Part shown: positions 819 through 3,823 of the stretch, in pieces
Layout: each line of letters opens with the position of its first letter
Position numbering within the stretch: position 1 is the first letter of the stretch
Source: a virus
DNA: 34,290 bases
Virus record (IMG/VR): IMGVR_UViG_3300037145_000024
Span: 1 to 34,290 of that record
Reading direction: 5' to 3' (one strand)
Position numbers and translations under genes: made by a program
Notes under the pieces: model-generated
The model's database searches: none
Seen by the model: the letters and a program-made list of their open reading frames with translations, nothing else
What the model was told of the DNA's origin: nothing

Positions 819-842
819 AGCCCTGCCAGTTACGGCAGGGCT
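819..842 (-). terminator. hairpin terminator after the lysis genes
   Basis: A perfect 9-bp stem (AGCCCTGCC / GGCAGGGCT) with a 6-base loop is followed on the minus strand by TACTTTTGG. The U-tract is weak, but the hairpin lies about 130 bases past the last lysis gene and just before a new small operon, as a transcription terminator would. Confidence 0.55.
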
Positions 843-2216: not shown

Positions 2217-2480
2217 CTAAATTCCTTTCGGTTGCGCCGGTCCCACCGGCTGTAAAGGGAGAGGAGTTTCAGGCGTGGTCATGACGGGCTTCGAATCCGG
2301 AAGCTGCGCCTTGGTCGTGGACTGGAAAAGTTGAACCGCAGCACCAATGACGCCTGCGGCGATTCCGATATCGAGGCCGCTTTTGTGGAACACGACAACC
2401 ATCGCTCCGCCGGTGAGCAGGATCAGAAAGGCCCAAACCTGCGAATTGATTGAGTTGATGGATTCGATGAAACTCTTCAT
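2217..2480 (-). CDS. holin-like two-helix membrane protein
   Basis: The 87-aa protein has a short amphipathic N-terminus and two membrane segments at about residues 15-31 (VWAFLILLTGGAMVVVF) and 35-52 (LDIGIAAGVIGAAVQLF). A polar, proline-rich tail follows. Size, topology and position before the lipoprotein and endolysin fit a small phage holin. The family cannot be named from sequence. It overlaps the acyl carrier protein gene by 4 bases (ATGA). Confidence 0.62.
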   Translation of the reverse strand: MKSFIESINSINSQVWAFLILLTGGAMVVVFHKSGLDIGIAAGVIGAAVQLFQSTTKAQLPDSKPVMTTPETPLPLQPVGPAQPKGI

Positions 2481-2746
2481 TGATGCGCCACCTTCTGGAC
2501 AGTTGCGAAGACCTGGCCAACCGTCTTCCAGGCGTCAGCCTCTTCCTCGTCGATCCCCGTGCCGGCTGGGAGCAGTTCTTCCTCGAGCTTCATCACGATT
2601 TCAATGCGGTCGAGCGAATCCATGCCGAGATCATCCTCGAGGGCCGCGTCGGGCGTGAACTGCGCTTCGTCGAACAGCAACACGCTGGCCAGGATCTCTT
2701 TGGTCCGCTGCTCGAGCTGGATCTTATTCGTGGTGACCAATCGCAT
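2477..2746 (-). CDS. acpP-like: acyl carrier protein
   Basis: An 89-aa protein with the hallmark of acyl carrier proteins. The motif DDLGMDSLDRIEIVMKLEEE (residues 38-57) puts the phosphopantetheine attachment serine at residue 44 in DSL, followed by the acidic recognition helix. Length, acidic character and the helix before the motif (LEQRTKEILASVL) all match. ACPs carry acyl chains in fatty-acid, lipid A and related synthesis in the cytoplasm, after a host phosphopantetheinyl transferase modifies them. The gene is translationally coupled to the holin-like gene and starts inside the end of the preceding basic-protein gene. No other fatty-acid gene is present here, so it would have to work with host enzymes. 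Confidence 0.88.
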   Translation of the reverse strand: MRLVTTNKIQLEQRTKEILASVLLFDEAQFTPDAALEDDLGMDSLDRIEIVMKLEEELLPAGTGIDEEEADAWKTVGQVFATVQKVAHQ

Positions 2747-2939
2747 TGTGAGGCTCGTGATTCCCGCTTTTGTGCGCTTTCAATTTGTTCTGGTATGCAC
2801 CGATCGCCGCGCCTTTGCCTTTGGCGGCCGCAATCTTTGCGAAGTTGCCGGTAGTTTTCGTGCGCCCGATCGCCCGGACTGCGGCCCGTCCGTGTGCGCC
2901 CTTCGGCGTGTGACCTTTAGAAGCGGAATTCAGCTTCAT
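2724..2939 (-). CDS. small basic protein (71 aa)
   Basis: A Lys/Arg/His/Ala-rich protein with two repeats rich in G-K and A-K (for example TTGNFAKIAAAKGKGAAIG). It has no membrane segment and no named domain. The ribosome site ACGGAGGTTAA precedes the ATG. The 3' end overlaps the acyl carrier protein start by 23 bases. The composition suggests a nucleic-acid-binding or DNA-condensing peptide, which is inference only. Confidence 0.6.
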   Translation of the reverse strand: MKLNSASKGHTPKGAHGRAAVRAIGRTKTTGNFAKIAAAKGKGAAIGAYQNKLKAHKSGNHEPHNAIGHHE

Positions 2940-2974
2940 TTAACCTCCGTGAGAATGCGGTTCAATGGGGCTCC

Positions 2975-3103
2975 CTAGTTGATCTGCCAGCAAACATTGC
3001 TCACATCCGCACTCACCCCTGCGAGAGCAGTGTAAGAGTCGATCACAAAAGGCTGCGATCCCGTCCGCCGCCAATTCGATTCATTAATTCTCCTTTTTTT
3101 CTT
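2975..3103 (-). pseudogene. orphan C-terminal coding remnant after the fibre-like gene
   Basis: Directly after the TAA of the 3104-3823 gene, the same frame stays open for 42 more codons and ends at TAG. It contains protein-like sequence such as GSQPFVIDSYTALAGVSADV. No proper start codon precedes it in this frame; a good AAAGGAG site at about 3091 only serves a 13-codon ORF in another frame. I read it as the left-over C-terminus of an earlier fibre protein. The rest of the 2940-3103 gap holds only the ribosome site of the next gene. Confidence 0.35.
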
Positions 3104-3823
3104 TTACTGTGCTGTAAAGCTAAATGTCGCACTGTTACTGAAATTCTGACCAGCGAACCCGCTAAATACAAAAGTGTTCAGGGTTCCAGTTGAGACCCAT
3201 GATCCCCAAAATTGAAACAATTGGTGACTGGAGCCATCTCTATAGCCGTCAAGAGAATTAAAAGTAACATTACTTCCACCGAGATTATGGAATGTCGCAT
3301 CGAACGATGCAGAACCTCCAGTACCTGCAAAGCTCCCGAGTTGCAGTTGGGGAGTGGTGTTAAACTGCGCCCCGTCACTCCTATCAGTATTATAGTGTCC
3401 AGTCGTAGTGTCTCCATTTAGTTGTACCTGAATCTGATCCGCCGCTGATGCTGTTAAACCCCCACCGTGAATCTCTAAGTTTAAAGGCGTGCTGCCCACA
3501 ACGACAGTCAGCGTTGAAACTCCATTAGTCGCAGTGACAAGCCCGTTTGAACAAGTACCATTAGTAACTGTTAGTGATGAGCAAGGAATTAAACCACTAC
3601 CACTACCACTACCACTATTGAATTTTGTCCAGGTATTCGCCGGTCCGCAGATCCAGGGCACGCCAAGGATCCCGACAACATCGTTGGTCGCGCACGTCGC
3701 CGGCAGCGTGGCCGCGCCGTGGAAACGATAGGCCGACTGACTGGAGATCCCGCCGCCTGGCCCCTGCGCATGCGCTGCAGCCGCGATCGCGAACAATAAG
3801 AAAGCTGCGATCTTCAGCCTCAT
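3104..3823 (-). CDS. Sec-exported fibre/adhesin-like protein
   Basis: The 239-aa protein begins with a standard Sec signal peptide ending AHAQ at about residue 20. Then follow a short domain with two Cys pairs (residues 40-60 and 80-91), a (Ser-Gly)4 linker at about 70-77, and a long beta-rich, Asn/Ser/Thr/Gly-rich C-terminal domain. The part after the linker (3104 to about 3592) is visibly AT-richer than its neighbours, which suggests that domain came from elsewhere. The ATG overlaps the stop of the previous gene by 1 base and follows a GAGGTGA site. It may be a receptor-binding tip or a secreted protein. No family recognised. Confidence 0.68.
   Translation of the reverse strand: MRLKIAAFLLFAIAAAAHAQGPGGGISSQSAYRFHGAATLPATCATNDVVGILGVPWICGPANTWTKFNSGSGSGSGLIPCSSLTVTNGTCSNGLVTATNGVSTLTVVVGSTPLNLEIHGGGLTASAADQIQVQLNGDTTTGHYNTDRSDGAQFNTTPQLQLGSFAGTGGSASFDATFHNLGGSNVTFNSLDGYRDGSSHQLFQFWGSWVSTGTLNTFVFSGFAGQNFSNSATFSFTAQ
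3593..3616. repeat. (ACCACT)4 microsatellite coding a Ser-Gly linker
   Basis: Four exact tandem ACCACT units encode (Ser-Gly)4 on the minus strand. The repeat lies on the boundary between the GC-rich 5' part and the AT-rich 3' part of the exported fibre-like gene, so it marks a domain junction and could change in copy number by slippage. Confidence 0.85.

Follow-up and report, generated by a model that had tools for sequence, protein, structure and literature searches.

A predicted acyl carrier protein gene at the upstream edge of a probable lysis cassette in a soil-type phage

Acyl carrier protein (ACP) genes carried by phages raise the question of what a carrier of acyl chains contributes to infection, a question made more pointed where such a gene overlaps a holin-like gene, as at the locus described here. 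This locus lies in a virus record from IMG/VR (IMGVR_UViG_3300037145_000024), the whole 34,290-base stretch of which is referred to as the window. The window belongs to a soil-type phage, with a gene content that includes terminase, head-tail adaptor and RusA-like genes and a weak match to a major head protein. Near its left end, the minus strand encodes in order a small basic protein, the ACP, a holin-like protein, a lipoprotein-like protein, a 127-aa unknown protein (p127) and a lysin-like protein, followed by a terminator-like hairpin (Table 1). One close relative with the ACP region was found, IMG/VR 3300014168_000008 (40,789 bases), hereafter the sister; scans with the lysin-like protein, the lipoprotein-like protein and TerL identified only the sister and one fragment, and the phages collection gave no DNA match. 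Searching genome contigs with the ACP returned only weak matches to ACPs of Dependentiae/Babeliales, and no host can therefore be inferred for this phage.

Table 1. Coordinates of the predicted ACP gene, its neighbours and the terminator-like site in the window.
Feature	Position	Strand	Basis or remarks
Small basic protein, 71 aa, net charge +11	2724..2939	-	3' end overlaps the ACP start by 23 bases
Acyl carrier protein (predicted), 89 aa	2477..2746	-	PF00550, phrog_5934, AF2/PDB, conservation in sister
Holin-like protein, 87 aa	2217..2480	-	Hydropathy gives two hydrophobic stretches, at 13-31 and 34-52; homologue near GH24 lysozyme in a third phage (L160)
Small lipoprotein-like protein, 120 aa	1854..2216	-	Signal sequence, LTAC lipobox; 96% aa identity in sister
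Unknown protein p127, 127 aa	1474..1857	-	One hydrophobic segment; 4-base overlap with the neighbour on either side
Lysin-like protein, 167 aa	974..1477	-	ESSLG...YGPWQMM, transglycosylase/lysozyme-like by eye; 93% aa identity in sister
Terminator-like hairpin, 10 pairs	819..842	-	After the cassette; same place in sister

The ACP open reading frame begins with ATG and ends with TGA, and its product matches the Pfam PP-binding family PF00550 with an E-value of 3.8e-10 and 40.3 bits, above the family cut-off of 20.8; the best PHROG match is phrog_5934, annotated as acyl carrier protein (5.4e-14). Ser44 lies within a D-S-L motif (LGMDSLD) that is identical in the sister, and the recognition helix around it, DSLDRIEIVMKLEEE, is similar to that of E. 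coli AcpP. An AlphaFold (AF2) model built from an input of 37 viral ACP sequences has a mean pLDDT of 90.5, and among its Foldseek matches listed from the PDB the great majority are ACPs of solved structure (TM to target 0.78-0.88, rmsd 1.4-2.0). Solved ACPs were also found by phmmer, the best being that of Aquifex aeolicus (6.6e-11). The ACP models TIGR00517 and NF002148 are the best NCBIfam matches, with scores below their curated cut-offs (59 versus 71 bits, and 52.8 versus 70.45 bits, the latter for the AcpP equivalog TIGR00517), so the product is described as a carrier protein or ACP-like rather than as a proven AcpP equivalent. The gene is thus predicted to encode an intact carrier fold of the ACP type, and Ser44 is the predicted site of 4'-phosphopantetheine attachment. 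A sequence-only reading of the window had proposed a complete ACP with the serine in place, which is upheld by the Pfam match, the position of Ser44 in GMDSLD and the confidently modelled fold.

Comparison with known carriers places this protein closest in kind to the PHROG 5934 family of phage ACPs, of the moron/AMG class, which are likewise single-domain carriers with the DSL serine. Identity to the other phage ACPs aligned is only about 20-43%, the sister excepted, and the loop after helix II (LLPAGTG) is three residues longer than in these proteins or in E. coli AcpP. The window ACP is 40% identical to E. coli AcpP, the carrier of bacterial type II fatty acid synthesis (FAS; TIGR00517/NF002148), and shares its fold, however it differs in having an N-terminal extension and no fab genes beside it. 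The fabG-acpP-fabF arrangement of prophages (PMC8224337), in which the ACP is linked to fab genes, also contrasts with the window, where no fab or lipid genes adjoin the ACP.

The sister ACP shares 91% amino acid identity with that of the window. Its serine and the first residues of helix II (DSLDRIEIVMK) are unchanged, and the genes for the holin-like, lipoprotein-like, p127 and lysin-like proteins follow it in the order seen in the window. Substitutions between the two ACP genes fall mostly at third codon positions (3/3/14 by position), with a dN/dS of 0.18; together with the conserved open reading frame, this argues that the frame is not a chance one and indicates that the ACP is under purifying selection. 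The conserved block spans positions 945-2775 and includes both the ACP and the lysis genes, while for positions 2776-3619, just upstream, blastn finds no counterpart in the sister, suggesting that the ACP is retained together with the lysis block. The C-terminal NHEPHNAIGHHE of the small basic protein is also kept in the sister while the remainder diverges, conservation that is perhaps owed in part to the last codons doubling as the start of the ACP gene. The sequence NH(E/D)PHNA(I/V)G closes one small basic protein in the window (2724-2762) and two in the sister (locus L001, 5589-6023 and 7671-8039).

The holin-like gene, preceded directly by AAGGTGG, is a holin candidate on the basis of its small size and two hydrophobic segments; its product has no family-profile match in Pfam or PHROG. 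A homologue of 54% identity was found in a third phage, contig 3300044679_000032, which encodes a GH24 phage lysozyme (Pfam 6.1e-38) three genes downstream of it; the cassette in the window is therefore probably a real lysis cassette. The N-terminal part of the lipoprotein-like protein weakly matches a PHROG of Rz-like spanins (E 0.026), consistent with a possible spanin-like role. The lysin-like protein is a putative lysin that resembles lytic transglycosylases only by eye; Pfam, NCBIfam, PHROG, PDB and SLT searches returned no meaningful match, and its AlphaFold model, made from two sequences, was too poor for use (pLDDT 35.8). The hairpin after the cassette is one of three terminator-like sites found versus 3.5 expected.

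In the third phage, no PP-binding protein was found and the gene preceding the holin-like gene encodes a different small protein, indicating that the ACP is optional. The sequence-only reading had proposed a survey of ACP-holin linkage in related phages; the sister, the only close relative, retains the linkage, and in the third phage the holin-like gene stands without an ACP. The ACP is probably an optional gene at the upstream edge of the lysis cassette and not a core lysis part, and the description of it as embedded in the cassette went too far. The reported 4-base overlap is real, with the holin-like gene beginning within the ACP stop codon (ATGA), and is kept in the sister. However, overlaps of the same length occur at the lipoprotein/p127 and p127/lysin-like junctions and for 10 of 71 called downstream neighbours of viral ACP genes, none of the ten being recognised as a lysis gene, and the overlap alone therefore says little. 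As evidence by itself it was rejected as ordinary spacing.

Phage ACP genes are also not as rare as had been supposed. At a permissive threshold, tblastn with the window ACP matched 83 phage records, a large share of them with weak E-values, including phages of Prochlorococcus, Caulobacter, Serratia, Vibrio, Olleya and Rhizobium; a single ACP query from a Kuttervirus matched 270 records, almost all belonging to phages of enteric bacteria, and a scan of viral contigs gave 311 candidate stretches. The 17 phage ACPs compared were too divergent for one scanning profile. ACP-like genes are thus present in hundreds of phage records and are fairly common, and the window ACP adds a well-supported case to a known kind of phage gene rather than representing a new system. 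Published work treats phage ACPs as auxiliary metabolic genes whose function is unclear (PMC5463345, PMC8224337, PMC10152775, PMC11705849), and an ACP has been predicted among tundra-soil viral genomes linked to Acidobacteriota (PMC11924767); the literature searched contained no demonstrated function for any phage ACP. Pseudomonas phage HRDY3 (L153) has two adjoining genes annotated as acyl carrier proteins.

No lipid-gene Pfam match was found among the window ORFs tested, in line with the earlier description of an ACP standing without other lipid genes, and no phosphopantetheinyl transferase (PF01648) was found in the window or the sister record by a search that was positive in 10 of 14 control genomes. 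A functional phage ACP would consequently depend on the host AcpS and host fatty-acid enzymes. The explanation taken as most likely, to which we give an even chance of being correct, is that the protein is an accessory type II FAS-like carrier, made late and added to the acyl-ACP pool of the host. It would be translated together with the lysis genes, converted to the holo form by host AcpS, and would serve in the pool as an extra carrier, supplying acyl chains or drawing them off, with a possible shift in lipid or membrane synthesis at the end of infection. Several results count against this explanation: no partner enzyme for the ACP was found in the phage, the third phage has the holin-like gene but no ACP, and the ACP dN/dS is the highest among the 14 genes compared, although the gene is small (the holin-like, lipoprotein-like and lysin-like genes have values of 0.07-0.10).

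The ACP may instead be a metabolic moron that boosts the host fatty-acid or lipid supply and has nothing to do with lysis, having settled at the end of a late operon that tolerates extra genes. We consider this somewhat unlikely. In its favour, when 59 genes lying downstream of viral ACP genes were scanned against PHROGs, only two, from one clade (L027/L030), matched Rz-like spanins and five matched RusA-like resolvases, counted from the best 25 of 32 families; in annotated phages the ACP adjoins gyrase, methylase, tail, capsid or hypothetical genes, and the 4-base overlaps with other neighbours mentioned above are common. Against a mere passenger stand the retention of the ACP with the lysis block in the sister and the recurrence of ACP-spanin adjacency in two unrelated lineages. 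In Cronobacter phage GAP32 an Rz-like spanin directly follows the ACP, and in Xanthomonas phage XbC2 a structural-protein gene separates the ACP from an o-spanin gene downstream; proximity of an ACP to a spanin-like gene has already been noted in Eneladusvirus phages (PMC7760394). In these Mimasvirus/Eneladusvirus jumbo phages the ACP is near or before lysis genes as in the window, however the genomes are large and unrelated and the neighbours are spanin genes rather than a holin-like gene. A lysis neighbour is thus unusual for a phage ACP but not unique, and with the window the three lineages are suggestive. Taken further, ACPs beside holin or spanin genes could form a convergent lysis-accessory class, in which drawing on the acyl-ACP pool or binding ACP partners alters membrane or lipid synthesis and so tunes holin triggering or outer-membrane disruption, a speculation that we rate as quite improbable.

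An improbable alternative to the extra-carrier explanation is that the ACP acts as a decoy, occupying host partners of ACP (e.g., SpoT, MukBEF, AcpS or acyltransferases) with acyl chemistry secondary or unneeded. The ACP-like proteins of Ackermannviridae, carrier-like in sequence and often annotated as ACP, have glutamate in place of the serine (DELD) in every example examined, and no phosphopantetheine could be attached there; some phage ACP-like proteins must therefore act in another way, possibly through a phosphomimetic or binding role, which counts against the acyl-carrier explanation. A divergent eukaryotic ACP reported to be decoupled from fatty acid synthesis (PMC8547962) offers a precedent. 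The window ACP and its sister, however, keep both the serine and the recognition helix. Homologues lacking the serine, which the sequence-only reading had taken as telling against its proposal, are thus confined to these distant proteins, the close homologue having retained it. A virion-borne ACP, inside the particle or on its surface, that takes part in entry or assembly is very unlikely indeed: mass spectrometry detected ACP in jumbo phages of the Eneladusvirus group infecting Erwinia (PMC7760394) and in Sajous1 (one retrieval; PMC10892097), but these ACPs are distant from that of the window, trace detection may reflect carry-over, and nothing in the window indicates packaging. A phage protein or lipoprotein had also been put forward as a possible recipient of acyl groups from the ACP. 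Lgt and Lnt draw acyl groups from phospholipids and not from acyl-ACP, and a role for the ACP as acyl donor to a phage lipoprotein was therefore rejected as unlikely.

The window combines a small genome, an intact ACP whose gene overlaps that of a holin-like protein, and a sister for comparison, which makes it a tidy case in which to ask whether phages draw on the host acyl-ACP pool late in infection; set beside the serine-less Ackermannviridae proteins, it would allow acyl chemistry to be sharply distinguished from protein binding. The DELD sequence is found in every one of L040, L048-L056, L065 and L067 (Ackermannviridae or close matches), and the ACP-like protein of the unclassified contig L058 also has glutamate in place of the serine. 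A count of serine versus glutamate over all viral ACP loci was set aside as a measure of frequency, since the pattern behind it allowed no third residue. In five viral loci (L023, L070, L075, L112 and L129) the ACP adjoins a 163-aa protein of one family with an overlap of 1-8 bases; this family probably accounts for the RusA-like/Holliday junction resolvase matches of the PHROG neighbour scan. In viral contigs L059-L062 a fatty acid desaturase gene (Pfam 3.8e-11) comes immediately after the ACP gene, suggesting a lipid role for some phage ACPs.
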